DNA of 37,017 bases, taken from the IMG/VR virus record IMGVR_UViG_3300042520_002913, positions 1 to 37,017 of that record; one strand, given 5' to 3'. The translations under genes were made by a program, and so were the position numbers. Origin of the DNA: a virus. Positions 2,747 through 30,353 of this stretch are shown piece after piece (the stretch's first letter is position 1; every line of letters starts with the position of its first letter). The notes under the pieces are model-generated. The model ran no database searches, had not been told where the DNA came from, and saw only the letters and a list, made by a program, of their open reading frames with translations.

Positions 2747-4609
2747 ATGTTTGGTTTACCGACGCATCGCACGAAGACTCCTCCTTCTGGTCACAAATGT
2801 CCCGATATTTCTCCTTCTGAGGGCTCATATGATCCAGCTACGGATAGATCTTCCGTCGGTTGCAACGATAAGTGCCCAAATCAAATTAAATCAGCAATAC
2901 GTTTAGCTGAAATGAGAGACAATCACTATTCTGTAGTTATTGCTCAAGACTATAAAAATATGCGCGGATGGGGAGGGCTAGCAGCTGATGGGTTGGGAAT
3001 TTCAAATACAAATACACCTACGTTAATTTTTCCAAATTGGGTTGGACCAAAAGAAGAAATTGTGTGGGTTCGGTCTCAGGAAGGTTGGTCGATATTCAGA
3101 ACACTGCAAGGCAGTGTGTACGCATTTGGCCCAAATTATAATAAAATATTTGGATCCGCGTATAGTAATACTGGAAAATTTGAACGAGCATTAACTAACG
3201 TAATTTGGATGCAAATTGCTGGAGGCATTGCTCGCGGTAATGCAGGAGAAGGAGTTCTAACAAGTGTTTATGTAAAAAATGATGGTTCGGTGCACGGATT
3301 AGGAAACGCTCGACCAAGCGGATTCGGAGCAATTACTACGGCTTTGGCTACAGATGGAGCATCTAATGATTTAGGCATAGGAAATGCTAAAAAATGTTGG
3401 GTTCAACTTTTTGATAACAATGACCAAAACACAAAAACATTCGTTCTTAAAAATGATGGAACTTTATGGGCATGCGGGTATAATGCAGGAGGAGCACTCG
3501 GAGTTGGATCTTCTTCAACGCACGTAACCAGTTGGATGCAGGTTATTGATTCTGCTGGCAATCCCTTAACAAACGTTCAAAATGTAATAACATCCGCGTT
3601 ATACCAAAACACGACATGTATTTTGGCTGACAAAAAAATATATTCTTGTGGACAAAACACAAGAGGAGGCCTCGGACTCGGGCTGGCTTCCTCAGCAACT
3701 CGTAATTCAGCAACTCAATTGCTGAATATAGCAAGCGCTAATTTAATTGAAGGAGCATATTTTTATTCAAGCTTTTTAGCTTCTACGGACAGTAATGAGG
3801 TATATACATGGGGAAACAATGGTCACGGAGAATGCGGAGTGGGAGTTGCTGCAGGTACAGATGTAAACACAGCAACTAAAGTAATTACTATCCCAACAGA
3901 CGAAAAAGTAATTTGGGCTCATGGCGGAGGCAGTTATAATATGTGCCAAGGAGCATTCTCGATCGTTAGAGACGGAGGTTCGGTATATGTAGCTGGTTAT
4001 AACCACACGTATGCTCTCGGAATTCCTGATAAAAATAATCAAAACATTATAAGTTTCATGAGAAATGATTATTTTGGATTTGGATCGCCTATTTTGCTTG
4101 AACCATGGAGATTTCCAATTTCTGTCAACGGTAATTATTTTACAACTGGCACTAATATAATTTCAGGACTAACTCCAATCGACTATCAAGATAAAAACGT
4201 AACCGTTCCAGGAAAAGCGGCCGCAGCTGAGCGCGTTTATGTAAATAAAGGATATTATGTTTCAGGTCCTGGTGTACAATATCAAACACAGGTTACATTT
4301 GTTGACGTAAGTGCTAACGCAATTTATATTGACAAGCCCGTATTAGCTAATGCCAGCAATATTACTCTTACGTATCACAGCTATCCAAAAGCAGTGCAAT
4401 GTGACATATGTGGATATTCAGGAGAAATGGCAATGAAAGTTGTAACTGTCAATGGAGACTGTTCTGGCACAATGTATCAATGTGGTTGGAATCAACTAGT
4501 TAACGCAAAATATAATTTTAATCCATACCCATTTAAACCTAATGGTATCAAATTTGATGATAATGGACAAAAAGTAGATTTGCCCTGCGCGTTTGAAATG
4601 GAATTTTAA
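2747..4609 (+). CDS. RCC1-repeat virion protein (predicted seven-bladed propeller)
   Basis: A 620-residue protein with RCC1-type repeats, the family in which each blade contains a (V/L)-x-x-(W/C/F)-G-x-N-x-x-G-x-L-G signature. Visible blades are GWGGLAADGLGI (74), VYAFGPNYNKIFG (124), VHGLGNARPSGFG (182), LWACGYNAGGALGVG (240), IYSCGQNTRGGLGLG (298), VYTWGNNGHGECGVG (352) and VYVAGYNHTYALG (413), seven in all. The first 45 residues hold a Cys-rich segment (HKCPD, GCNDKCPN). A C-terminal region of about 170 residues follows, with more Cys pairs (CDICGY, YQCGWN). RCC1 propellers mediate protein-protein or ligand contact in cellular organisms. The surrounding fibre genes suggest a virion surface role here. 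It follows the 189-residue gene by 3 bases. Confidence 0.75.
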   Translation: MFGLPTHRTKTPPSGHKCPDISPSEGSYDPATDRSSVGCNDKCPNQIKSAIRLAEMRDNHYSVVIAQDYKNMRGWGGLAADGLGISNTNTPTLIFPNWVGPKEEIVWVRSQEGWSIFRTLQGSVYAFGPNYNKIFGSAYSNTGKFERALTNVIWMQIAGGIARGNAGEGVLTSVYVKNDGSVHGLGNARPSGFGAITTALATDGASNDLGIGNAKKCWVQLFDNNDQNTKTFVLKNDGTLWACGYNAGGALGVGSSSTHVTSWMQVIDSAGNPLTNVQNVITSALYQNTTCILADKKIYSCGQNTRGGLGLGLASSATRNSATQLLNIASANLIEGAYFYSSFLASTDSNEVYTWGNNGHGECGVGVAAGTDVNTATKVITIPTDEKVIWAHGGGSYNMCQGAFSIVRDGGSVYVAGYNHTYALGIPDKNNQNIISFMRNDYFGFGSPILLEPWRFPISVNGNYFTTGTNIISGLTPIDYQDKNVTVPGKAAAAERVYVNKGYYVSGPGVQYQTQVTFVDVSANAIYIDKPVLANASNITLTYHSYPKAVQCDICGYSGEMAMKVVTVNGDCSGTMYQCGWNQLVNAKYNFNPYPFKPNGIKFDDNGQKVDLPCAFEMEF

Positions 4610-4622: not shown

Positions 4623-5702
4623 ATGGCGGAATGCTTTGGTAATTTAATTGTCGATAAAATTAATCGCACAGAATGCATTGGCAATTCTTTAGTTAAGATT
4701 AATAAAAATTTCGCAGATCTAGATGCAGCAATTTGTCGAGCGGCCAATGGAAACGATCAATTTAAGTCAATTGTAACCACAAATATATTTCCTCACACAG
4801 TGGAATGTAGGCTTTCTTTGAGTCCTACAAATCCGGCTCCTTCAACCGACATAAAAAATGCCCAAGATATATATCTACACCCATACAACGGCAATGCTGT
4901 TGCTTTATGGAACGCTGGAGCTGAAAGATGGGAGCTTAAAGCACTAACTTCTACTATTTCTAAAAATCTTACGGGGTGCGATGCGGATACAAATTATGAC
5001 ATATTTTTGTATCACACTGGACTTAAATTTGAAATAGAACTTCAAAAATGGATTGTTTCAACACCAGGGGCAACTCCACCTGCATTAGATATTCAAGACG
5101 GCATACCTGTCAAAACACTAGAACCAAATAAACGATTGATTGGTTGTTTGAGAACAACCGTTGCATGTCGTACTGAAATGAGTTTTGGGAAAACTGCTGG
5201 CATCGGAGGCAGTCATCCAAAATTATTTTTATGGAACATGTACAATCAAGTGCCAGTTCATTTTTCCATTTTAGACTCAAGAGAATACTCAAGCACGTGG
5301 GTTACTACTGCTAGTGGGCATAATGCTCAAACAAACGGTCCTTTTGAACTATTTGGTTCAAGTAACAATAACCGAGTTTCATTTATTAAACGGGATACAA
5401 CTATTTTAACAATGAACTCCGTGCACACTTGCGAAAACGTAGCACGATATTATTTTATACATTCGCTAAATTTAGAAACTCCTACTGTTGCTAATTTCTT
5501 TGCAAAAACTCCGGGTATACCAATATACGAGTCTTATGGCTCTCAGTCGATGACTTACATGACTCACAACATTATGTCTCCTGGTTATCACTTTGTGCAA
5601 ATGGCCACAATGACATATTCTCAACAACCTGTAACGTTTAATATGTGGCAAAATAACAGCAGACACGCATATGGCACCACAGGTTCCTTTTCACTATTTT
5701 AA
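4623..5702 (+). CDS. Tail fibre/adhesin protein
   Basis: A 359-residue protein. Residues 14-40 contain RTECIGNSLVKINKNF, the N-terminal motif shared with the fibre gene at 116. Residues about 79-185 match a domain I recall from many phage fibre proteins: a segment of the type 'YLHPYNGNAVALWN...W', then 'NYDIFLYHTGLKFEIELQKW', 'QDGIPVKT' and 'RLIGCLRTT', followed by FLWNMYNQVPV. The C-terminal 150 residues are aromatic and beta-rich (SYGSQSMTYMTHN, GYHFVQMATMTYS) and look like a compact trimeric tip or lectin-like head. The stop codon overlaps the stop of the convergent minus-strand gene by sharing TTAA. It probably forms part of the host-recognition apparatus. Confidence 0.7.
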   Translation: MAECFGNLIVDKINRTECIGNSLVKINKNFADLDAAICRAANGNDQFKSIVTTNIFPHTVECRLSLSPTNPAPSTDIKNAQDIYLHPYNGNAVALWNAGAERWELKALTSTISKNLTGCDADTNYDIFLYHTGLKFEIELQKWIVSTPGATPPALDIQDGIPVKTLEPNKRLIGCLRTTVACRTEMSFGKTAGIGGSHPKLFLWNMYNQVPVHFSILDSREYSSTWVTTASGHNAQTNGPFELFGSSNNNRVSFIKRDTTILTMNSVHTCENVARYYFIHSLNLETPTVANFFAKTPGIPIYESYGSQSMTYMTHNIMSPGYHFVQMATMTYSQQPVTFNMWQNNSRHAYGTTGSFSLF

Positions 5703-8700
5703 TCTATTAACAATCTTTTAGTTAACAGATTATTAAACGACAATTCTAGCAATTCATCATTGCCGTACCATTGCTCATCTGTAGATAGCGAGTAATCTAA
5801 AGTATTATTAGGGGAATTCCAATTAATAATATTATTCTTGTATCCAACTTCTGTTTCGTTGTATTGAAAAAACGCATAGTTATCATCTAGTGGCATTCGA
5901 GCGCTATCGATATCAATTGACAATAAAGGATAAACAGTTAATCCGGAATCTAACGGAGACACATAAATTGGCTGATAGAAATTATAAATTTTATCTTTCA
6001 TTATTACAGTAGTGCCGGCTGTAATTAAATCAGTCAGTGTAAGAGAATCTCCAATAACATCGATCAAATCAGTTTCGTAGTGTTTTTGACCTCTTAAATA
6101 ATGTTTGTTAACAGAAAATAAATTTAATAACCTTTCCACTTCTCGTGGAAAATCATCAGCAAAAGTTGTTGTTTCGACTGACATTTGTTTTGCTAAAGAC
6201 ATGAGCTGGTCTATTTCGACTGTATCTAAATCTCCATGATTGGAAAAGAAATTAGCAATCCTTTCATATGAGATTCTTCCAACGCTTTCTGTAAAAGGAT
6301 TTCCATCCCCCACAATTGCCTTCATAAACTCGTTAAAAAATTGTGAATTTTTATGTAATATTTCCGGTAATGCTAGAGATTTATAGTGTCGAGATGTATC
6401 AAATTCCTCATTAACTTTTACAATTTTAGGTATGCCGTTTTCTAAATCTAATACTTTAAATTGTGTAGAATTTCCATTTATAAAAACAGATGAAAACGTA
6501 GAACCTGTATATTTTTGATACCATTTGTTTCCCGTCCAATCTCCAGCTCCTTGAGCTGAAGGAACAGACCCCATTCCAAGAAAAGAAGCAACTTGAACTC
6601 CATTAACAATAGAATCAGTTTGAGTAGTCGTTGGAGCAACAGAAAACACTGACAATGTGCTGTTTGGAGAAATTGCTTTGAATATATATATCTCGTTCTT
6701 ATCTTTGTTTATTGCCCATATATTATCAAATACGTCACTATTTAAACCAGACCATTCTTCGTTTGCTGAAAAAAGCTGATTTATTTCGGAAGGAGTATAA
6801 CTATTAACGATTAAATCTAGATTACCGCCAGTAAGACTTATTTTCCAAGTCGTAGTATTTGTGGCATCTAAAATATTTTGTGTAGAAATGCGATTAAGTC
6901 CATGAGTAATCCAAAGATTTCCTGTTCGATCGAATGTTATATAACTAGGTCTCAAATAATTTGTAAATTCATACAATTTCATTCCTGTAGTAGAATGATA
7001 ACATTGAATTGTATTTGTTTCTCTACATGCTACCCACACGTTATTAACGTTATCGATTGCTAATGATACAGGCACTGAGTTAAGATCTAATCCTGGACAC
7101 TTGAACAACTCGTTTCCGCTTAAGTCGTATTTGATCAACGTGCTATTAACAGGGTGAGCATAACAAACCCAAACATCATTATTCATGTCGGTTTCTATAA
7201 TTGGCGGCTCTAAAAGCAAACTACCGTAATCCTCTGAGCTTAGTGGATAGCTAACATTAGGCACCGCAACTCCAACTAAATTTAAACTTGAGTCAAATTT
7301 TAAACAACTCAAACTCCCAAACATAGAAACCCAAAAATTGTTGTTTTGATCGATTGAAATATACGAAGGGGCATTATTTAAATCTCCTGTGTATGAACTT
7401 ATTGAAATAGAAGTAGTGGGAGCTAAGGAAGAACCGCCACTATCATACACCCAAATTACATCTTGATCAGCATCAGCAGCGTATAAACGGTTTAAAATTG
7501 GATCAAAAGCCATTCCGTATACAGCTCCTGCTCCAGACAATGTATATGTAGTCGCATTGAATATAGTCGATTCTGGAGCAGTAATTAAATCTAATGAACC
7601 TTGAGTTACAGTTCCCAAATTTTGATAATAAGCAACCGATCCACATTCAGTGTTAGAATACGTTACAACTCCAAACTTGTTAATTTTTCCAGCTCGTGGG
7701 TGAGAAATATAAGCATGAGGATAAATTGGATAGCCAACAGGAAAGGCAAATGTTCCTCCCCCATTAACAGCAACCGTTTTTGCTGAAATAGTAATAGGAG
7801 TATCAAATGATAATAAAGGAGTTAATGTTGTAAATACAAATCCTCGACAAGGAGTTCCAAGATGATCATTAGCTTTAAAATATAAAGGAGCAGCAGACGG
7901 AGCATAAGAAACCCCGTCAACTTCAACTGTATATAAATGTTCAGGTACAAATCCACTAATAGGATTTCCTGACAACAATTCTACTTTGATCGGATTTATA
8001 GAGCCAATCATATTCGATGCTGGATAAGATAAAACTTTAACCCCAGTTAGCGAAGGAGAAGAAATGTAGTTGTTATATTCACAACTTATTAATATTGGAA
8101 TTGGAACATTCGACCATTTTATAGGATATACTTCATTAATGTAATTTTCTGTAATTTTAAGATCAGTTGGAATTGTTTCGTTTATTTGCCAAGCAATTGT
8201 TGCCCGCGTAACTTCACTGTTTGCGTAACTTGGATAGCGATAATAATTTGAGTCTTGTGGATTTACAAAATGCAATGAACTTAGTGTTGCCACCAACAAT
8301 AGCGGGCATGGATTTAAGGTAGAAGCAGAATCGTCATAATAGTAAAATGAAGCTGTGCCGGAAACAGCAACGGTATTTCCTTTTGAGTCAAAAATTGGCT
8401 TAGTATTAACTCTCAATACCTCATTTATCGGTTCGTTTGTTTCAGAGTTAACAAATCTCCATTGTGGTACCAAAAAATTCCATTTATTTTCTAAATTTAC
8501 TCCATAATGAGGTAAAGAGGCAGAATTAATGCTTTGCAACACAATTCCGATAGAAGAATTAATTTGACAAGAAGTTACACCTAATACAAACATTTCTGTC
8601 GGCATTACACTAGCCGTACCATAACTAGTTGGGGAAGAAATAATTTCCATGGAATCTCTTATTAGATAATCCACTTCGACTTCAGCACTATTTGTAACTA

Positions 8701-8923
8701 TCGATCCGATCGGATAACAAGCTGACAAGGAAACAGTATAAATTCCAGGATATTCGTATAAATGAAAAGCTGTTACTAAGTTATATTCCGTATTGTTGTC
8801 TCCAAAATCCCACAACAAAGAAGTAAAACCGCTCGGTACATTTGCCGTAAAAGCAAATTGTGTGCTGTAAATAAATCCAGTTTGATTGCTCGGACTGATG
8901 TTAAAATATAAAGGCGCTGTCAT
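5699..8923 (-). CDS. Large baseplate/tail protein with PKD domain and beta-propeller
   Basis: A 1074-residue protein encoded directly after gp6; its ATG overlaps the gp6 stop (TAATG), so translation is coupled. Residues 1-86 form a PKD-type domain with LLWDFGDNN and a later YEYPGIYTVSLSA strand. Residues about 460-750 form an NHL/YVTN-like propeller with blades such as MAFDPILNRLYAADADQD, ISIDQNNNFWVSM, LAIDNVNNVWVAC and ITFDRTGNLWITHG. GAGDWTG follows at about 793; a matching GKGDFTG follows the propeller in the gene at 23763. Residues 855-1074 are a mixed helical domain (FFNEFMKAIVGDG, FPREVERLLNLFSVNKHYLRGQ) that looks like a baseplate-anchoring part. It occupies the slot after gp6 where T4 has gp7, but homology to gp7 is not shown here. 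The stop codon overlaps the convergent fibre gene. Confidence 0.7.
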   Translation of the reverse strand: MTAPLYFNISPSNQTGFIYSTQFAFTANVPSGFTSLLWDFGDNNTEYNLVTAFHLYEYPGIYTVSLSACYPIGSIVTNSAEVEVDYLIRDSMEIISSPTSYGTASVMPTEMFVLGVTSCQINSSIGIVLQSINSASLPHYGVNLENKWNFLVPQWRFVNSETNEPINEVLRVNTKPIFDSKGNTVAVSGTASFYYYDDSASTLNPCPLLLVATLSSLHFVNPQDSNYYRYPSYANSEVTRATIAWQINETIPTDLKITENYINEVYPIKWSNVPIPILISCEYNNYISSPSLTGVKVLSYPASNMIGSINPIKVELLSGNPISGFVPEHLYTVEVDGVSYAPSAAPLYFKANDHLGTPCRGFVFTTLTPLLSFDTPITISAKTVAVNGGGTFAFPVGYPIYPHAYISHPRAGKINKFGVVTYSNTECGSVAYYQNLGTVTQGSLDLITAPESTIFNATTYTLSGAGAVYGMAFDPILNRLYAADADQDVIWVYDSGGSSLAPTTSISISSYTGDLNNAPSYISIDQNNNFWVSMFGSLSCLKFDSSLNLVGVAVPNVSYPLSSEDYGSLLLEPPIIETDMNNDVWVCYAHPVNSTLIKYDLSGNELFKCPGLDLNSVPVSLAIDNVNNVWVACRETNTIQCYHSTTGMKLYEFTNYLRPSYITFDRTGNLWITHGLNRISTQNILDATNTTTWKISLTGGNLDLIVNSYTPSEINQLFSANEEWSGLNSDVFDNIWAINKDKNEIYIFKAISPNSTLSVFSVAPTTTQTDSIVNGVQVASFLGMGSVPSAQGAGDWTGNKWYQKYTGSTFSSVFINGNSTQFKVLDLENGIPKIVKVNEEFDTSRHYKSLALPEILHKNSQFFNEFMKAIVGDGNPFTESVGRISYERIANFFSNHGDLDTVEIDQLMSLAKQMSVETTTFADDFPREVERLLNLFSVNKHYLRGQKHYETDLIDVIGDSLTLTDLITAGTTVIMKDKIYNFYQPIYVSPLDSGLTVYPLLSIDIDSARMPLDDNYAFFQYNETEVGYKNNIINWNSPNNTLDYSLSTDEQWYGNDELLELSFNNLLTKRLLID
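5701..5731. repeat. Inverted repeat at the convergent gene junction
   Basis: AATCTATTAAC (5701-5711) and GTTAACAGATT (5721-5731) are inverted copies with one mismatch and a 9-base loop. The repeat lies exactly at the overlap of two convergent genes and codes for the last residues of the minus-strand protein. It could act as a weak transcript end, but it has few G/C pairs and no long T-run. Confidence 0.4.
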
Positions 8924-13352: not shown

Positions 13353-15011
13353 ATGACAAAAGACTCTTATTATTGGCTGAACAAAGACTCCCGTAAATTT
13401 CTCGAACGTGGTTATTTGCTAGAAGAGGAAACAGCAGAACAAAGAATTGAAGATATTGCTCAAGCCGCTGAAAAATATTTACAAATGCCTGGATTTGCCA
13501 AAAAGTTTACGAATTACATGGCACTTGGGTTCTACAGTTTAAGTTCTCCAATTTGGAGTAACTTTGGTAGAAAACGCGGCCTACCAATCTCTTGTTTTGG
13601 TTCGTATGTTTCTGACACAATGGAGTCGATTCTCCACAAAGTTGCTGAAATTGGAGTAATGACAAAGCATGGGGGCGGAACATCTGCTTACTTTGGAGAC
13701 ATTCGTGGAAGAGGCACTCCAATTTCGTGCGGCGGAGAGTCTACTGGCTCCGTTCATTTCATGGAGCTTTATAACAAACTTATGAATGTTGTTTCTCAAG
13801 GTAATGTTCGTAGGGGTTCGTTTGCTGCTTACCTTCCCATCGATCACAGAGACATTGAGGAATTTTTACAAATTCGTTCAGAAGGTCATGACATTCAGGA
13901 AATGTCGTTTGCTGTTTGTGTACCTGACCAATGGATGAGAGAAATGGTAGGGGGAGATAAAGACAAACGTAAGATTTGGTCTAAGGTAATTCAAAAGCGT
14001 TTTGAAACAGGATATCCTTATATTATGTTTTCTGACACGGTGAACAATAACGCTCCTTCTATTTATAAAAAGAAAGGATTGCGAATTAACAACTCTAATC
14101 TCTGCAGTGAGATCTGTTTATCAAACGATAAAGACGAGTCGTTTGTTTGTGATCTTTCCTCTTTAAATCTTGAACGTTGGGATGATATAAAGGATACAGA
14201 TGCTGTTGAGACTCTTGTGTATTTTCTTGATGCAGTAATGTCAGAATTCATTAATAAGACAGAAGGAATGCAGTTTATGGAAGCTCCAAGAAGGTTTGCA
14301 ATGAACCAAAGAGCTCTTGGGGTCGGAGTTCTTGGATGGCATTCCTTGTTGCAATCTAAGATGATTGCGTTTGAGTCTATGGAAGCAAAATTGATTAACA
14401 ATCAATTATGGAGCTTTATTAGGAAAAAGTGCGACTCTGCAACAGAAGAACTAGCAAACAAGTTTGGAAAGGCTCCTATTTACGAGGGTACGGACGAGAA
14501 TAGAAGAAATACCACAACTCTTGCTGTTGCCCCAACAACATCCTCTAGCTTTATTCTAGGACAGGTTTCTCAATCAATCGAGCCATTGAATTCAAACTAC
14601 TATGTCAAAGATCTTGCAAAGGGCAAATTCACGTACAAGAATCCTTATCTTAAAGCTCTTCTTAAAGATAAGGACAAGAATGATGACGATACATGGAAGT
14701 CAGTTCTCGAGCACGGAGGTTCTATACAGCATTTAAATTTTCTTTCTCAAGAAGAAAAAGACGTATTCAAGACTTTCGGTGAAATTTCTCAGAAAGAAAT
14801 TATTATTCAAGCCGCTCAAAGACAAAAGTATATCGATCAATCTCAAAGCTTGAACTTAATGATTCCTCACGATGCTAAACCAAAAGAAGTAAACGAGCTT
14901 TTAATCTTTGGTTGGGAACAAGGAATTAAAACTTTTTATTATCAACGTGGATCCAATCCTGCTCAAAAACTCGCAAGAAACATTTTGAATTGCAAGTCAT
15001 GTGAAGGATGA
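13353..15011 (+). CDS. nrdA: Ribonucleoside-diphosphate reductase large subunit (class I, NrdA, no ATP cone)
   Basis: A 552-residue catalytic subunit of class I ribonucleotide reductase, shorter than the 750 or so residues of E. coli NrdA. Active-site residues are present: C81 (PISCFGSYV) and C266 (FVCDLSSLNL) as the redox pair, N249/C251/E253 (NSNLCSEI) as the thiyl-radical site, Y529-Y530 (KTFYYQRG) for radical transfer, and C547-x-x-C550 (NCKSCEG) as the swinging C-terminal thiols. The Gly-rich KHGGGTS and SQGNVRRGS segments fit the specificity and substrate regions. The protein starts at YYWLNKDSRKFL, directly before the barrel, so the N-terminal ATP cone is missing. Third coding step of the nrd operon. 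Short NrdA of this kind is known from Bacteroidota and from marine phages. Confidence 0.95.
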   Translation: MTKDSYYWLNKDSRKFLERGYLLEEETAEQRIEDIAQAAEKYLQMPGFAKKFTNYMALGFYSLSSPIWSNFGRKRGLPISCFGSYVSDTMESILHKVAEIGVMTKHGGGTSAYFGDIRGRGTPISCGGESTGSVHFMELYNKLMNVVSQGNVRRGSFAAYLPIDHRDIEEFLQIRSEGHDIQEMSFAVCVPDQWMREMVGGDKDKRKIWSKVIQKRFETGYPYIMFSDTVNNNAPSIYKKKGLRINNSNLCSEICLSNDKDESFVCDLSSLNLERWDDIKDTDAVETLVYFLDAVMSEFINKTEGMQFMEAPRRFAMNQRALGVGVLGWHSLLQSKMIAFESMEAKLINNQLWSFIRKKCDSATEELANKFGKAPIYEGTDENRRNTTTLAVAPTTSSSFILGQVSQSIEPLNSNYYVKDLAKGKFTYKNPYLKALLKDKDKNDDDTWKSVLEHGGSIQHLNFLSQEEKDVFKTFGEISQKEIIIQAAQRQKYIDQSQSLNLMIPHDAKPKEVNELLIFGWEQGIKTFYYQRGSNPAQKLARNILNCKSCEG

Positions 15012-22205: not shown

Positions 22206-22850
22206 ATGGGAAATGTTACCTACAATACATGGGAGCAACAAACTTGCAACTCTTGTAAAACTCACGAACCTCCAAATATCGAGGTAGTAAAAACCGTATA
22301 TACGAGGGAGTTAATCGTAGAAGTATTAGAAAACTTTCCTACAGCTCATATAGATATATTTCAAGATCCAAATTTTTTAAATAGAAACTCTCCTTATAAA
22401 GTAAAGCTAACAGCCCGCAACGTGTTACCAGGAAGTTTTCCTATAGAACGGATAGATTGGGATTTAGGTGACGGTACTCCAATTAAAAGCCAAAAACGGT
22501 GGGCAATAAATACCGATACAGAATTTGAATATTCTGATGTATTTTTTGCTGATTGGAGAGATCCCAGAAATTACGATATAAATCACGTTTATGAAACTTC
22601 TCCTGGTTCTAATTTGACTTTTTATCCGTCACTTACGTGTTACGCGAGCTCTACTGGTTCGTATGATTGCGTAAAAGGAATTGTTGGTCCTATTAATCCA
22701 TCTCCGATTTTAACTGAAAACGACGAAGCAAATAATGCAGTTAATAAACGAAAACCGCTAAATTTGATACAAAATGAACTAACTGATCACGGAAAAGTTT
22801 TACTTGGAGAGTTAGATTGTACGGCTGTTATTTGGAGGTACAATAAATAA
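22206..22850 (+). CDS. PKD-domain tail protein
   Basis: A 214-residue protein. It opens with NTWEQQTCNSC, a W-x(4)-C unit matching the tail of the preceding protein. Residues 50-160 look like a PKD domain: PYKVKLTARNVLP, then RIDWDLGDGTPI and later NHVYETSPGSNLTFYPSL, with a 35-residue loop between the D-x-G-D-G strand and the closing H-x-Y strand. The C-terminus is a short amphipathic segment (RKPLNLIQNELTD) and GELDCTAVIWRYNK. The stop codon lies within the late promoter box of the next gene. Role in the tail inferred from neighbours. Confidence 0.65.
   Translation: MGNVTYNTWEQQTCNSCKTHEPPNIEVVKTVYTRELIVEVLENFPTAHIDIFQDPNFLNRNSPYKVKLTARNVLPGSFPIERIDWDLGDGTPIKSQKRWAINTDTEFEYSDVFFADWRDPRNYDINHVYETSPGSNLTFYPSLTCYASSTGSYDCVKGIVGPINPSPILTENDEANNAVNKRKPLNLIQNELTDHGKVLLGELDCTAVIWRYNK
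22842..22849 (+). promoter_or_regulatory. Candidate T4-type late promoter box overlapping a stop codon
   Basis: AATAAATA covers the last codons and TAA stop of the preceding gene (codons AAT AAA TAA at 22842-22850) and ends 11 bases before the ATG at 22861. Confidence 0.6.
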
Positions 22851-22860
22851 ACTTATTGTT

Positions 22861-23766
22861 ATGTCGTTTACCGTTAATGATCATTGGTTGTCTGCACTAT
22901 CTCCTGTAAAATTTGTTTATGATTTTGCAGACGGTCAAGAGTTTAAGGGACAATATAAACCGATTCGAAATAACTTTTTTTATTACGGACACGAAGCGTT
23001 TAAAAATTTTAAAGATGCAACTTTGAGCAAAAAAAGCGCTTTGGTATTAACCGATACTAAGCAATTGCAAGACATTTTAACTTCTAAAGCTGTTTCTTAT
23101 TCCGTCGGAAAATACGTTGCAGGTAGTTTGTTTTTAAAAATGGAAGATAGATTTTTAACCACAAAAAACAATCTACTGTATAGAGGAGCTCCGTGCGGAA
23201 ATGCCTCAGATGCAGCATTAATGACTATTTCTTTAGTTGGAGACAGCTTAGCTGAAATTAGAATTGGTTCGAAGTTTATTGAAATAGACAGCAACTATCC
23301 ATTTACAGCAAAATTAGTAGATTCCGAAACATTCGGAGAAGCTCAATATAGACGGTTTGAAATTGAAGTAGCGAATAATAAAATAGCGTTTAAAATTAAA
23401 ACTCCTATTGGATATAGATTTTTAGCTTTTGGTAAAGATAATGTATTAAGAGCCGTAGGTGTTGAATTGAACAACACTATAGTAAACAATTATCATTTTG
23501 ATGCTGTATTTCAAACGAGATCCTTTATTGATTATGGCTTTGATATCTCTAAAGGAGAAATGGTGGAATCGAAATATTTCAATGAAACTGACAAACAACT
23601 GCACAATGAAAATTTAAATATTAAACAAAGCATGTTTAGAAATACTCACTATCTAATGGAGTGTCCGACTTTAAATATATCTTTAAGTGGAGTTGTGGGA
23701 GCCAACTTAATTAATCTTAAAACTAATTACTCTTCTTCTGGAGTATTTCTTCCTTCGTTTTTATGA
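22861..23766 (+). CDS. Structural protein of unknown function in the tail block
   Basis: A 301-residue protein not recognised by family. It is soluble, mixed beta-rich, and carries no signal peptide or membrane segment. Notable segments are SPVKFVYDFADGQEFKG at the N-terminus, YRFLAFGKDNVLRAVGVELN in the middle and LMECPTLNISLSGVVGANL near the end. It starts right after a late promoter box and overlaps the next gene by ATGA, so its product is made in step with the 825-residue LamG/propeller protein and probably assembles with it. Confidence 0.55.
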   Translation: MSFTVNDHWLSALSPVKFVYDFADGQEFKGQYKPIRNNFFYYGHEAFKNFKDATLSKKSALVLTDTKQLQDILTSKAVSYSVGKYVAGSLFLKMEDRFLTTKNNLLYRGAPCGNASDAALMTISLVGDSLAEIRIGSKFIEIDSNYPFTAKLVDSETFGEAQYRRFEIEVANNKIAFKIKTPIGYRFLAFGKDNVLRAVGVELNNTIVNNYHFDAVFQTRSFIDYGFDISKGEMVESKYFNETDKQLHNENLNIKQSMFRNTHYLMECPTLNISLSGVVGANLINLKTNYSSSGVFLPSFL

Positions 23767-26240
23767 GTAACAGATCTTACAATAAATTCTTCGTTAATCG
23801 TAATCGAGAAGAAGGCTCTGAAAAATTAATGCTTGGTTACATGACAAATGCCCGAGAAACTATTCTTCCGAGAGACTCTTTTGTAGAATTTAATATTCCG
23901 TTTTATACAAATCCAGTAGCAATTGCTAAAAGCTCATTAATTCCAAGCGGAGCTACAGGAGGCTCGTTTCCTGCTGCTTCTGATCGTATTTTTAAAGCTA
24001 AAAAAAATTACGGAGAATACACTCCATATGGTAATCCGTCTGATATAGCGGACGGCACTTGGTTTTGTAGTTGGTTATACAAAACACCTGAAGGTCAACT
24101 ACAGTGGACTGATAGATATTATAATCCTGGAGCATTGGTAACTACAGCTAGCCTTTTAACTGGTCAATATGTTTCTCATAATCCGGTTTATAGAGATGTT
24201 GCTTCAACCATGGTTTTAGAACCAGGTGTGAGATACAAATATTTCCATTGCGGAGAAAAGTTAGCAAATGAACTCGTGTCTTCGTTTTCCGGAATAAGCT
24301 CAAATAAAATTTTAATGAATTTAACTAATTGGGAGACAAATAAGCAAATAGATACCTCTCCGAATTCTTTTCAAATAAAAATAACAAACCCCAACGAAAA
24401 TTATAACTACACTTCTGTGTATGAAGACGAACTTCACGTCAAGAAAAAAACGTTATATTTTGATGGAGTGACTCCACTTACTGTAACTTTAGCACATGAT
24501 TATGCTTATACTCCAGAAGATGAATTTACTGTTGCGTTCTGGTGTCAAAGTCCCGATTGGCAAGAAATTCCAACAACACAACTTATTGGAAATTACTCTT
24601 CAAACGGAGGATGGGGATTGTTTGTTCAAAATTTAAGTAGCTATCCTTTTTTTGTGCTTCCGGAAACAAATTATGGGCATTTATTGTACGTTAATGAGGG
24701 ACTTAACGGCTATTTGGATCAGTCTGTACAAGAAATACCTAAAGTTCCAGCTGCGGCTGCTCACGTTGCTGTTGATTTTAATCAACATATAGTAGTTTGC
24801 ATAGAAGATAATTCAGGCATAATCTATAAATTAGATAATTCTGGCAAAATTATTGCTCACTCAAAACAAACAAACGATCCATTTGAGTACATATTTTTTA
24901 ATGAGGTTCCATTGCAAATTTTGATTGGAGCTAATAATACAATCCTTGTACGAACAACACGTGTAGTTTATACTTTCGATGAGCAATTAAATAAAATTTC
25001 TCAATTTGTCATTTCAAGTTCTTCAAACGACGTAATGGCTTTTCGCTGGAAAGCAAGTCAAGATTTTCATGAATTTAATATAACCAAAAATGTATCTGAT
25101 TCTAAATTTATAGAAACTACTCAGTGGATAGTCTCTTCAGATGGACACTTATATAAAAAATCTGAAAATGATTCAGATTTTGCTCTTTTTTATCAATTTT
25201 CGAAACCTGCAGTTAAATTAAACATAGATCCTCTTAATCGTATATGGGTTACTCATGGTAATAATTTAATATCCGTATTTCAATCCAATGCTGCACCATT
25301 AGATTTTCCTGTATTTTCTTTTTCAGTCGGAAACGACATTGCTCATCCAATTAAAAATTTAAACTTTTTTTGTCAATTTAATCCGACTACTAGTCAAAGA
25401 AGATGGCTTGCGGTAATTTACTACTCTAACGAAAATTTTATTCATATTGTAGATATGAACGGAACCGTCGTAAAAGTTATCGACATGTTTTCATTATTTA
25501 ATGCCAACGTTGTGCAAGCGCTTGAACAAACTGCTGACAAATTTAGGTTTTTAGGAAAAGGAGATTTTACTGGATATGAACACCGCCGAGTATTTCAACA
25601 TTTAGCTCCTTATTCAAATCAGAATCAACTCGTATTAAAAATTGCTTTGCAAAATACTAAAAATGAAAGATTGATTTTTGATCATTTTATACAAAAATAC
25701 CCGATAACTGATTGGAGTAAAGATTCTTGGCAGCATGTTGTTATGACACTTAAGCATCAGACGTTTAATGTCTTTGTTAATACGACGCCTGTGCTATCTT
25801 TAATGTTTTCTGGAAAAAACAAATTAACGTATGACTTAGCTCCTTTGTTTTATATAGGGTCTTCCGCAGGTTCTCAATCTGGATTTAACAAAGAACTTCA
25901 ATACACTTCTGAATTATTTAAAGGACATTTTGCTGATATTAAAATTTACAATTATGCTCTTAATAAGACGAATTACGAAATATTTTTAAGAGAATTTATT
26001 AAGGCTGAAGACATAACGTGGTTTTTGCCAACTCCAGACTTGCAATACATAGAAAAAATTGAAAGGCTATTTAAACATAAAGTTCCTGGCCATAAATCAG
26101 CTCTGTATCGTGTTAAACTCAAAGGAACTTATATAAAGGACATAAATCTCAGAAAATTAATCGAACAACAAATTAAACAGCTAGCATCAGAAACAAATCC
26201 AAGCTATGTGGAATTTTTGTCAATAGAATGGGTCGATTGA
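23763..26240 (+). CDS. Tail protein: LamG-like domain interrupted by a beta-propeller
   Basis: An 825-residue protein. Residues about 225-303 look like the first half of a LamG/concanavalin-type domain: LYFDGVTPLTVTLAHDY, EFTVAFWCQSP, GGWGLFVQN. Residues about 316-580 form an NHL-like propeller (VAVDFNQHIVVCIED, LNIDPLNRIWVTHGNNLIS), then GKGDFTGYEHRRVF at about 598. Residues about 620-745 return to LamG: WSKDSWQHVVMTL, FNVFVNTTPVLSL, FYIGSSAG, and FKGHFADIKIYNYAL, the characteristic closing strands. The C-terminal 70 residues (HKVPGHKSALYRVKL, YVEFLSIEWVD) look like a tail-anchoring domain. The propeller plus GxGDxTG unit also occurs in the minus-strand 1074-residue protein. LamG folds commonly bind carbohydrate, so glycan contact is plausible but inferred. 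Confidence 0.72.
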   Translation: MSNRSYNKFFVNRNREEGSEKLMLGYMTNARETILPRDSFVEFNIPFYTNPVAIAKSSLIPSGATGGSFPAASDRIFKAKKNYGEYTPYGNPSDIADGTWFCSWLYKTPEGQLQWTDRYYNPGALVTTASLLTGQYVSHNPVYRDVASTMVLEPGVRYKYFHCGEKLANELVSSFSGISSNKILMNLTNWETNKQIDTSPNSFQIKITNPNENYNYTSVYEDELHVKKKTLYFDGVTPLTVTLAHDYAYTPEDEFTVAFWCQSPDWQEIPTTQLIGNYSSNGGWGLFVQNLSSYPFFVLPETNYGHLLYVNEGLNGYLDQSVQEIPKVPAAAAHVAVDFNQHIVVCIEDNSGIIYKLDNSGKIIAHSKQTNDPFEYIFFNEVPLQILIGANNTILVRTTRVVYTFDEQLNKISQFVISSSSNDVMAFRWKASQDFHEFNITKNVSDSKFIETTQWIVSSDGHLYKKSENDSDFALFYQFSKPAVKLNIDPLNRIWVTHGNNLISVFQSNAAPLDFPVFSFSVGNDIAHPIKNLNFFCQFNPTTSQRRWLAVIYYSNENFIHIVDMNGTVVKVIDMFSLFNANVVQALEQTADKFRFLGKGDFTGYEHRRVFQHLAPYSNQNQLVLKIALQNTKNERLIFDHFIQKYPITDWSKDSWQHVVMTLKHQTFNVFVNTTPVLSLMFSGKNKLTYDLAPLFYIGSSAGSQSGFNKELQYTSELFKGHFADIKIYNYALNKTNYEIFLREFIKAEDITWFLPTPDLQYIEKIERLFKHKVPGHKSALYRVKLKGTYIKDINLRKLIEQQIKQLASETNPSYVEFLSIEWVD

Positions 26241-26270: not shown

Positions 26271-29200
26271 ATGGCTATTGATTTGTACGCAAATTTCGAA
26301 AGAACCAGAAACAGTAACGTTTTTTATCGTCCGACTGCATTTGGATCATATCCTGTGTTTTTAAGATTGAGTGATACGGAAAACTTAAATGCTAATTATA
26401 CGACCGTTTTTTATGCGGAATCTTCTTTAAATGGAGCTCCTTTTACTGAATTTCATAAAGACATAAATGGTAAATTTGTGTCTTATTTGTTGTTTAATTC
26501 GAGTACACCCGCGTTATGTTCAGTGAGAGTTAATCTTAAAGATATAACTCAAACGCAATTATTAGAAAGCTTTAATATCAGTTGCCGGTTTTTAAACGAC
26601 ATTCCTGTAGCTAATTTTGCTCTTTGGCCTACATATGTTCCTTATAGAGACCCTTCAACTGGTCTCGTTACAACAAAAATTTTAAACGGTTTGAATTTTA
26701 CTGAAAGTTCAGGTACTTCGTTTTTCGGAGAAGGTCACACAGAAACTTTCTATCTTTCTTGTTGGAACATTACTATTAATTTAAATTCCATGTGGTTTGT
26801 TGGAACACCAGCCCCTATACTGGTTGATCGTTCACGATCGCCAGTTGGTTTAAACCCAACAGATAGTTCAGTTTATGTTGCTCCAGGGCCGTTTTTTAAT
26901 TCAGGAGTAGTTGATATTACTTCAGCTCCGCTGGAGTATCAAGAATTTCCTGTGAGCTTATTTGTATATGATAATGTCAATATTACTCCTAAAAGCCCAA
27001 TTGTTACATATCACGATTCTACAGGAGAGCCTTTTTATTATCCTTATTTTTATTCTACTCAAGATGTTGATCAGACCTTAAATCCTCAAAATACGTATTT
27101 GAGAGACACAATTCGAGTTATTCCGTATACTCAACCGTCAGCTGTTGGATTTAGCAGTGACTTAAATACTCCGTTTTTATTTTTACCAATTAATTCCACA
27201 ACGAGATTGTTAACATCTGAGTTAATATTGCCTCCTCAGCCAACTTATACTCCGGTTACTGTTTCATACAAAGGTTCGATGTGGAATATTTTTGCACGTT
27301 CGATGGTCGGAAATTGGGGAGATGTAGATGATGCTTTTACAAATACAGGATTTTTACCTTCAGTTAATTCTTACAGCACTTATATAAAGTACGATAGCAA
27401 CAATAACGGAATATTGGATTATTTTACTGCATCTCCTAAAGTAGATACTACTCTAACCGTTTCAGGAACAGCGACAAGAACTTTACACATTAACGCTCCT
27501 CCTTATGATTGGATTCCGAGAGACGTGTTTGATATAAAACAAGCTACCACAGTAATTAAACCTTTACCGTTTGGAAATAAAATATATACTCCAAACTTTT
27601 ATAATTTAAAAGACACAAATGTTAGGTTTGAGTTTTTAATAAACTTCGAACAAACTCGCTATACGATTAAGCAAATAACTTTTTCTTCTGATTCAGCTTA
27701 TGCTCCTTATACTACTACTTCTTCTACTGTTGGATTTTTAAAGTTCAAAAGATCTGGGTTGGTTTCCATATTAGTTACGATCACAACGGAAGATACGCTC
27801 ACTGGAGTTACACAAACATATCAAACTTATTTTTCTAATTTTATAGAAGCGGTAGATTATTACGATGACGTTCATCCTGAATATTATTTTTCTGATTCGA
27901 TAGCAACGCAACTTTCACAAACTTCTTGTCCTAAACTAACCCCAAACGAATGGGTCACAGCAAATGCCGTTAACAACGTAGTGTCTAAGTTTTATGATGT
28001 ATTGGAAACAGTTAATCGATTTGGTTATCGTTATATTCCAGCATTTTGTTTTTATGGTTGGTTGGGATTGTTGCACGACAGACAAATGGTTTGGCAAGAA
28101 GTAGAGTGCCCTCCAGCTAACGAAAACGTCGTAATGTGGATGGCTCTGGAGTGCGAAGTTGAATCTTGCCGGCCGGCTTTATTTGATTACAGTTTCAAAA
28201 CTTGGGAAGACAATGAGTGTCCAGAACCAAATACTTGTTCCGGTTCATATTGTATGATTTGGAATTGGAAAAATCAAAAAACTACTTTTTCTGAACAATG
28301 TGTTACGTGGAAACAAGCAACGTGTGGAGATGAAGAAACGGAACCAGGAAGGTATGGTTCTTCTTGGAAAAGCAAAAATGTGTGCGACACTGACTCAGAG
28401 ATAAATTGCGTAAAAAGCAATTGGCATATTTGCACAATTGATCCTGAATACTTTCCAATAACTAATTGTGAACAAGTGTCGTTTCGTTGCAGTTTTGTAG
28501 GAATTGCTCCAAGCAATACAAACGACACTTTAGTTTTGGCGTATTCAACGGAACTTCATTTAGTTTCTACTGATTACGGCATGACAAAATTAGACTTAGA
28601 AAAGCTTTCCAATCAAACTACTAGATTCCAAAACATCGTAGGATTATCAATTGGGCCAACAGACCAGTTGTTCGTACTAGATTCAACGTTATCTCAAGTT
28701 TCAGTGTTCCGTTTTACTCCTGAAAATAAATTGGATTTAATCAATAGTTGGGGTAAATTCGGTTTTAGGGATAGTGTAAATGGTTTAAATAAACCTAAGG
28801 ATATACACGTAGATCAAAACAACAACGTGCTAATTGCTGATTCTGGCAATAAGTGTGTTAAAAAATTTGCTTTCAATGGCAGAAATTTAGGAATATTAAC
28901 TTACTCAAAATTTGAAGTGGATAGCCCAAGAAGTGTATGTGTTGATTCTGAAGAGCGAATACATGTTCTTCTTTCAAAATCAGTAGTCGTGCTTGACTAC
29001 AACGGAAGCTTTTTGTTTGAATATCAACTTGCTGAAGAAGTCCAGTCTTCAATTAAGATTAATACCAATTACAACAGAGAGTGTGTATATATAACATACG
29101 GAACAGGGGTAGCAAAATATTTTAAAACAGGAACTCTGTCTCATTTTATAACAAATAACCACAGATGTGACAGCGGAGCAATAATTTCGAGCATAACTAC

Positions 29201-30353
29201 AGTATCTTCTGACAAATACAGAAACGTATATGTCTCAGCAGGAGAGCGCATTTTGAAATTTGGAGATAGGATGAAAATCAAACAAACCATGTCCAATAGT
29301 TTGAATTCATCTCTTTGGTCAAGCAAACAAAATCTTTATATTGAAAAAGATGAATACATCCAACCTTGGGTTTATCTTCGTTTGTTTCACAAATTATGGG
29401 ACAATATCGAGCTTATAAGAAGTTCCTTATTTTACGAAACCGGCCAATGTAAAAATTACAAAGCAGCGGTTTGGGAAAAACAGGATTTAGTTATCGGTCA
29501 AAATGAGCTCGTATCAAATGCAGTAGTTAACCGTTTAATTTGTCAATTGTGGGACAACTTGCAAACGGTACTACAATACTTTGATCCCGCATGCGGTACA
29601 CAAGAAAGTAATGATGTACAACTTGAAACTTGTTGCAAAAACCGGTTGTCTTGTGAACAACAAATTCCTCAACTCGATCAAGAAACAATTCCTGATGTAG
29701 AAAAAACATGCAACAGATCAATTCGTTATGAAGGAATGGTTTCTTATCCAAGAGTTGAATTTTTTGAGTTAGGAGTTACTTCCTTAGGCTTAGTAAGCTT
29801 AATTGCTACTCCGTTTGATGTACCCGATCGTTACATTATAAATTATAACAACTCAATAGCTTTAGATACTGGATATCTTGGTCAAGCTAATAGATACGGT
29901 TTTGGAGGATTTAACCGTTCTTCGTTTACTAATAGATTGAGCGGACTGAAAGACCCTGTGACTGGAAATTTATATCCATTTGCTCATTCTTCTCATGAAC
30001 CAGATAATTATCCAAGTGTATTGGATGCTCCTGGTCCTCTTACTTTCCAATTCAACAAAAATAGTCTAACATCAACTGCTGTTCTTTCAGTGTATGCTCC
30101 GATGGTCAATACTCTATGGGAGGCATATGTAAGTTGTCCTGGCCAAATGCCAGTTCCACGGCCCACGCCAACGCCAACTCCAACGCCGACTCCAACTCCA
30201 ACGCCAACTCCAACGCCGACTCCAACTCCAACGCCGACTCCAACTCCAACGCCGACTCCAACTCCAACGCCGACTCCAACTCCAACGCCGACAGCAACAC
30301 CTATCCCAGTAGGTTTTGAATACCGCAATCCTAATTTTACTTTAGAAATTTAA
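26271..30353 (+). CDS. Giant tail protein: Trp/Cys repeats, NHL propeller, helical repeats, (Pro-Thr) arm
   Basis: A 1360-residue protein. Residues 1-550 are beta-rich with no family I can name. A helical unit at 557-590 (EWVTANAVNNVVSKFYDVLE) recurs at about 1027-1057 (EYIQPWVYLRLFHKLWDNIE) and 1078-1109 (ELVSNAVVNRLICQLWDNLQ). Residues about 605-740 are rich in W-x(3,5)-C units (WQEVEC, WMALEC, WEDNEC, WKQATC). Residues about 744-1000 are an NHL propeller (GLSIGPTDQLFVLDS, DIHVDQNNNVLIADSGN, SVCVDSEERIHVL). Thus propeller and Cys block are inserted between helical repeats 1 and 2. Near the end come 22 Pro-Thr dipeptides (1298-1341) and a short tail GFEYRNPNFTLEI. T4-like marine phages carry large proteins with similar helical repeats, recalled from memory. 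Probably a baseplate-periphery or fibre-network protein. Confidence 0.7.
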   Translation: MAIDLYANFERTRNSNVFYRPTAFGSYPVFLRLSDTENLNANYTTVFYAESSLNGAPFTEFHKDINGKFVSYLLFNSSTPALCSVRVNLKDITQTQLLESFNISCRFLNDIPVANFALWPTYVPYRDPSTGLVTTKILNGLNFTESSGTSFFGEGHTETFYLSCWNITINLNSMWFVGTPAPILVDRSRSPVGLNPTDSSVYVAPGPFFNSGVVDITSAPLEYQEFPVSLFVYDNVNITPKSPIVTYHDSTGEPFYYPYFYSTQDVDQTLNPQNTYLRDTIRVIPYTQPSAVGFSSDLNTPFLFLPINSTTRLLTSELILPPQPTYTPVTVSYKGSMWNIFARSMVGNWGDVDDAFTNTGFLPSVNSYSTYIKYDSNNNGILDYFTASPKVDTTLTVSGTATRTLHINAPPYDWIPRDVFDIKQATTVIKPLPFGNKIYTPNFYNLKDTNVRFEFLINFEQTRYTIKQITFSSDSAYAPYTTTSSTVGFLKFKRSGLVSILVTITTEDTLTGVTQTYQTYFSNFIEAVDYYDDVHPEYYFSDSIATQLSQTSCPKLTPNEWVTANAVNNVVSKFYDVLETVNRFGYRYIPAFCFYGWLGLLHDRQMVWQEVECPPANENVVMWMALECEVESCRPALFDYSFKTWEDNECPEPNTCSGSYCMIWNWKNQKTTFSEQCVTWKQATCGDEETEPGRYGSSWKSKNVCDTDSEINCVKSNWHICTIDPEYFPITNCEQVSFRCSFVGIAPSNTNDTLVLAYSTELHLVSTDYGMTKLDLEKLSNQTTRFQNIVGLSIGPTDQLFVLDSTLSQVSVFRFTPENKLDLINSWGKFGFRDSVNGLNKPKDIHVDQNNNVLIADSGNKCVKKFAFNGRNLGILTYSKFEVDSPRSVCVDSEERIHVLLSKSVVVLDYNGSFLFEYQLAEEVQSSIKINTNYNRECVYITYGTGVAKYFKTGTLSHFITNNHRCDSGAIISSITTVSSDKYRNVYVSAGERILKFGDRMKIKQTMSNSLNSSLWSSKQNLYIEKDEYIQPWVYLRLFHKLWDNIELIRSSLFYETGQCKNYKAAVWEKQDLVIGQNELVSNAVVNRLICQLWDNLQTVLQYFDPACGTQESNDVQLETCCKNRLSCEQQIPQLDQETIPDVEKTCNRSIRYEGMVSYPRVEFFELGVTSLGLVSLIATPFDVPDRYIINYNNSIALDTGYLGQANRYGFGGFNRSSFTNRLSGLKDPVTGNLYPFAHSSHEPDNYPSVLDAPGPLTFQFNKNSLTSTAVLSVYAPMVNTLWEAYVSCPGQMPVPRPTPTPTPTPTPTPTPTPTPTPTPTPTPTPTPTPTPTPTPTPTPTATPIPVGFEYRNPNFTLEI
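30162..30293 (+). repeat. Tandem minisatellite coding for (Pro-Thr)22
   Basis: 22 six-base Pro-Thr units, organised at the longer scale as an 18-base unit CCAACGCCGACTCCAACT repeated almost perfectly. It is far richer in G+C than its surroundings and open in several frames on both strands. The encoded Pro-Thr run should be an extended, stiff linker. Exact tandem copies invite slippage, so length may vary between isolates. Confidence 0.95.

Follow-up and report, generated by a model that had tools for sequence, protein, structure and literature searches.

A LamG-like domain predicted to be split by a beta-propeller in a putative tail protein of uncultured T4-like phages

Results

The 37,017-bp window (the whole stretch of DNA that was analysed) contains on its plus strand a gene (23763..26240) for an 825-residue protein in which one LamG/ConA-like domain is, very probably, split by a complete seven-bladed beta-propeller. 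LamG-type and propeller folds are each common, and lectin-propeller combinations are already known, either in tandem or with a domain inserted in the propeller; what sets this protein apart is the placement of the propeller inside a LamG hairpin. A survey of the literature, chiefly open-access papers, turned up no precedent in which a LamG domain or jelly roll hosts a propeller. Nesting is constant across the family: relatives of the gene occur at 50 loci in viral_contigs, and all 40 that were aligned carry the insert, at lengths of 276 to 386 residues.

Other genes of the window encode the baseplate wedge proteins gp6 and gp25, ribonucleotide reductase, Hsp20 and the head-closure protein Hc2. 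The window gp6 is approximately 23–27% identical to gp6 of T4-like cyanophages, and from gp6, gp25 and the other genes we take the window to be part of the genome of an uncultured T4-like myovirus.

Layout of the protein

The protein has a conserved N-terminal region (residues 30–225; 23850..24437, plus strand, as for all features below) that is kept in all members of the family and carries the motifs WFCSWLY and EPGVxYxYFHxGE. AlphaFold2 (AF2) modelled this region with pLDDT values mostly of 80–93, dropping at residues 81–96 and approximately 121–140, and it matched neither a Pfam entry nor any known family. The family profile for residues 94–163 matches antibody heavy-chain variable domains (E 0.006), a likeness around W..W motifs that is probably due to chance. 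The first half of the LamG/ConA-like sandwich follows (residues 226–291; 24438..24635), with AF2-predicted strands at 228–234, 240–243, 255–263, 272–276 and 282–289.

The propeller insert, assigned from structure alignment and a profile match, occupies residues 292–612 (24636..25598) and interrupts the hairpin between the strands at 282–289 (GGWGLFVQ) and 622–631 (LVLKIAL). It begins with an entry segment (residues 292–311; 24636..24695; SSYPFFVLPETNYGHLLYVN; mean information 0.64) in which E301, G305 and N311 are invariant in the 40-member alignment, and it ends with an exit segment (residues 598–612; 25554..25598; GKGDFTGYEHRRVFQ). The latter, at a mean information of 0.70, is the best-conserved stretch of the insert, with G600, D601, T603, G604, Y605 and R609 invariant in the 40 sequences. 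The second half of the sandwich (residues 613–745; 25599..25997) has predicted strands at 622–631, 639–647, 655–664, 667–672, 675–681, 696–698 and 720–729. A conserved alpha/beta C-terminal region (residues 746–825; 25998..26237) completes the protein; it belongs to no known family and had no convincing match among PDB sequences.

A LamG profile match in two complementary halves

The original prediction had placed LamG-type strands on both sides of a propeller, and the motifs it quoted are all present: LYFDG at 230–234, FTVAFWCQS at 255–263, WQHVVMTL at 656–663, FYIGSSAG at 696–703 and FADIKIYNYAL at 723–733. Its boundaries needed adjustment. Opening strands do occur in the interval proposed for them (225–303), but the first half stops near residue 291 and residues 292–311 already belong to the propeller, because the structure alignments begin at residues 291–293. 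The closing strands likewise lie where proposed (620–745), with the boundary shifted so that the C half begins near residues 613–622.

Profile searching confirmed the LamG similarity. The unspliced protein matched Pfam Laminin_G_3 at 40 bits (E 5.7e-10; curated cut-off 27.6), and this match was limited to residues 650–735, which correspond to positions 75–147 of the 151 in the profile. By itself, the N half (residues 226–291) matched profile positions 11–60 weakly (16.1 bits), and the C half scored 35.8 bits. When the two were joined in silico, yielding constructs for profile and pairwise comparison rather than real proteins, the match ran unbroken from position 11 to 147 and the score rose to 51.2 bits. 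Four scrambled N halves, made by hand with the composition kept only roughly, gave 34.4–34.5 bits when joined to the C half, and nothing was matched before position 75. The two flanks are thus complementary LamG halves (profile positions 11–60 and 75–147) and not two complete domains.

Joining the halves gave a near-complete Laminin_G_3 match in seven of seven family members tested, the window protein included. Among relatives, designated here by locus, the joined halves scored 45.8 (L007), 50.4 (L046), 52.3 (L146), 46.6 (L147), 49.3 (L154) and 63.5 bits (L150), the last covering positions 2–151 of 151; the unspliced scores of L146 and L154 were lower (33.4 and 26.7 bits). At E<=0.1, Laminin_G_3 was matched in 39 of 40 members and by the N half alone in 19 of 40 relatives (best 1.6e-4), while the N halves of L146, L147 and L150 had no Laminin_G_3 match alone. 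Nesting hides the LamG domain from ordinary scans, which show only one half.

Predicted structure of the insert and its flanks

The AF2 model, built from a 40-sequence alignment, had a pLDDT of 84 overall and of about 90 over residues 226–750. That a propeller fills the gap between the LamG halves was borne out by alignment of residues 292–612 to solved propellers, with Z up to 23. The alignment to 3u4y (VIA-align) gave Z 23.2 over 265 residues with an rmsd of 2.9, and that to 7bid, a seven-bladed designed protein, gave Z 21.0 over 255 residues, nearly the whole length of 7bid. Approximately 26 strands are predicted within residues 292–612, and on the model the insert would qualify as a seven-bladed propeller. 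It has the same fold as seven-bladed YncE/YVTN, NHL and WD-type propellers (Z 21–23 to 3u4y, 1l0q, 1ri6 and 7bid) but differs from them in being only about 10% identical, in its low repeat regularity, in being inserted, and in ending in the conserved GDFTGYE strand. The insert profile matched the NHL of TRIM2/3 partially (3.8e-5; profile positions 18–88), and a profile scan for NHL repeats matched none in the window protein and one of 40 members.

From the model we infer that strands of both LamG halves may lie in one two-sheet sandwich. In a perturbation test, residues 606–825 were folded alone with their own alignment, which removed the N-terminal region, the N half and the propeller. The mean pLDDT was 65, and the strand at 720–729, the last LamG strand, was lost; over residues ~696–725 the block pLDDT fell from 79–95 to 34–55, the next block standing at 70. 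The C half in isolation is thus given no proper fold by the prediction, which agrees with the original idea of one sandwich built from both halves. Pairing of strand 720–729 with the N half would account for its loss, but since the propeller was also removed, the test is no proof of this pairing.

The truncated model gave modest alignments (Z 5.8–6.5) with the later portion of ConA-like lectin domains, among them those of NanB, PAPP-A, clostridial binding domains and ADGRG4, and all 50 rows were apparently ConA-like. A fold search with the whole model was silent on the LamG part because propellers filled the list of matches. The N and C halves weakly matched the binding domains of clostridial neurotoxins, a likeness put down to the ConA-like fold that they have in common; nothing points to a toxin. 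In a mean-field DCA of 52 sequences, phylogeny was dominant and not even control hairpins produced a signal.

Variation within the family

A distant clade was found by scanning with the C-terminal region, and its members are still nested as judged by motif. A search of GTDB genomes yielded no relative, and tblastn searches of 50,697 phage records (INPHARED) with the window protein, L146 and L155 gave no match. No named T4 or cyanophage tail or baseplate family was matched, the best PHROGs value being 0.035. The search for an uninterrupted LamG version that the original prediction had recommended found none among the relatives. Against three separate LamG proteins that the same 217-kb phage encodes, an HMM of the joined family gave only marginal matches, which argues against a near uninterrupted ancestor.

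Mean column information was 0.53–0.62 for the N-terminal region, 0.47–0.54 for LamG, 0.41 for the propeller body and 0.62 for the C-terminal region. With columns treated as independent, the propeller body was less conserved than LamG (P 1e-6) and the entry and exit segments were more conserved (P 1e-9). In 89% of sequence pairs the propellers were less identical than the LamG parts, a descriptive figure because the pairs are non-independent.

Some lineages carry further inserts within the propeller. In L045, L046, L049 and L053, these lie after reference residue 415 and are very roughly 65–100 residues long. Matches to DUF4183 (8.2e-10) in L154:1218-5228 fall about where the propeller is expected, and they may represent a third level of nesting.

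Genes flanking the nested protein

The gene immediately upstream (22861..23766, plus strand) encodes a 301-residue protein and overlaps the nested gene by 4 bp; its product matched no known fold in Pfam or among PDB sequences. In the distant clade (L146, L147, L150 and L154) partner and nested protein form one fused chain, with the partner at the N-terminal end, and the two best hmmsearch matches of the partner were L146 (1.4e-34; L146:1929-2870) and L147 (1.9e-32). Such a fusion is a sign that the partner and the nested protein work together. Downstream lies a gene (26271..30353, plus strand) for a 1360-residue protein with an NHL repeat (1.9e-8). At every close locus with enough flank the gene order was kept, with a partner of approximately 300 residues (231–485), the nested protein and then a large protein of 888–2159 residues.

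A scan further downstream at two loci, L007 and L028, found tail collar/fibre genes matching phrog_523 (1.2e-38) and phrog_8469 (2.8e-15), followed by Hc2. The nearby tail collar/fibre genes, neck protein and gp6/gp25 point to a virion protein of the tail or baseplate periphery, and on this gene context the product is probably a virion tail-module protein.

Four proteins in the 37 kb bear propellers: those encoded at 2747-4609 (RCC1-type), 5699-8923 (SMP-30/NHL with PKD), 23763-26240 and 26271-30353 (NHL).

Discussion

How might a propeller nested in a LamG domain serve a phage tail? The reading that we favour, to which we assign a probability of roughly 0.6, is that of a nested virion protein at the tail periphery with anchored ends, a LamG pedestal and a propeller head. 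Along with the upstream gene product, the conserved N- and C-terminal regions would fix the protein to the tail or baseplate, and the LamG sandwich would act as a rigid pedestal. The two conserved strands would hold the propeller at a fixed angle, and the propeller would form an outward head that touches the host surface, whether glycan or protein. A conserved base that supports a faster-changing head would be the probable reason that nesting has been kept.

The assignment of host contact to the propeller is the tentative part of this reading, at somewhat below even odds; it is suggested by the lower conservation of the propeller, which can also mean weaker constraint. No glycan- or calcium-binding residues were identified in the protein. 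The original prediction spoke of a sensor ring on a glycan-binding jelly roll, and a display head on a phage tail protein suits the context better than a sensor.

The main rival reading, which we consider a real though lesser possibility, accepts the nested fold but has the propeller serve the baseplate or fibre network as a structural adapter or spacer, binding other virion proteins rather than the host. Propellers often bind proteins, four propeller proteins are found in one module of the window, the entry and exit segments are strongly conserved, and no host ligand is known. An assembly interface would be harder to reconcile with a propeller body that is the least conserved part of the protein, and extra propeller insertions, which several lineages have, are commoner in an exposed head than in such an interface.

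It is very improbable that the protein is not nested and instead has a propeller with an independent domain before it and a separate, complete LamG after it. The unspliced Pfam scan does show the C-terminal half only, and L151 has one local Laminin_G_3 match (profile 18–150) that spans the propeller end and the C half; this match is taken as a weak extension because in the window model that stretch corresponds to one of the propeller blades. In the window protein, however, neither flank alone spans the profile, the complementary halves join in all seven members tested, and the C half alone is predicted to be incomplete. The blade at residues 531–574, moreover, is required for a complete propeller in the AF2 model and the structure alignment. 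Least probable of all is a sialidase-like hydrolase that removes or trims host surface glycans. Trans-sialidase C-terminal and sialidase lectin families did match the LamG part weakly, and the lectin domain of NanB could be aligned to it structurally, but these results bear on the lectin fold alone. The insert is similar to propellers of the seven-bladed YncE/NHL/WD type (membership in GH33 being rejected on the 7bid match) and not to the six-bladed sialidase fold, and no Asp-box (SxDxGxTW) was seen by eye in the sequence.

The nested tail-periphery protein can be set beside several known systems. S-PM2p176 (YP_195209.1; entry listed under T4-LIKE GC 864), an annotated virion structural protein of the T4-like Synechococcus phage S-PM2, shares the propeller and LamG kinds of domain and matched the whole profile of the new family weakly (E 2.6e-7 in a small ORF set). 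It differs in carrying its domains in tandem, a propeller being followed by a CBM_4_9 domain, an uninterrupted LamG (656–815, profile 1–150) and a second LamG, and nothing in it matched the two terminal regions (N and C) that characterise the new family. Plain BLOSUM alignment to its LamG gave a weak signal for the C half (P 0.019) and none for the N half. The Laminin_G_3/ConA-like superfamily (PF13385) is matched over positions 11–147 of 151 once the halves are joined, but in the new protein about 320 residues interrupt the hairpin of strands 5 and 6 and the ligand site is not recognised.

The sialidases NanB, NanC and RgNanH and the V. cholerae neuraminidase likewise combine a lectin jelly roll and a propeller in one chain, but their propeller is six-bladed and enzymatic. 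The title of the 1994 structure paper on the V. cholerae neuraminidase reportedly refers to dual lectin-like domains. In NanB, NanC and RgNanH the N-terminal lectin domain is complete, and it is the propeller that takes up an extra domain rather than the lectin domain that takes up a propeller (PMC4646021, PMC4747158).

Across the viral library, a fold match of nearly full length was obtained only for A0A6J7X8W6 (BFVD), an uncharacterised 1206-residue protein of an uncultured Caudovirales phage (E 4e-38, TMq 0.61, 17% identity). Its length suits the fused form, and it probably belongs to the nested family.

The family is a clear example of an all-beta fold set into a hairpin of another such fold and kept across diverse proteins, and the constraints on such nesting are open to comparative study across it. 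It also puts a name to a candidate host-contact protein in uncultured T4-like phages that have no isolate in the searched collection. A further-reaching proposal, which we consider rather unlikely as a whole, is that this undescribed architecture arose when a propeller grew from a LamG hairpin, became fixed early in an uncultured T4-like group and provides its principal exchangeable head for receptor binding, some lineages having gained further domains within the propeller.

Several minor features of the window and its relatives were also recorded. Near the C-terminus of the 1360-residue protein, a PTPTPT proline-threonine repeat (30165-30292) is encoded by a 12/18-bp tandem array. Repeated W/C-rich stretches (W..x..C) occur in 26271-30353, 22206-22850 and L001:2682-4112 and are perhaps a common small repeat. 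The ribonucleotide reductase large subunit (13353-15011) has only 552 residues and its match begins at profile position 204, so that its N-terminal part seems to be missing.
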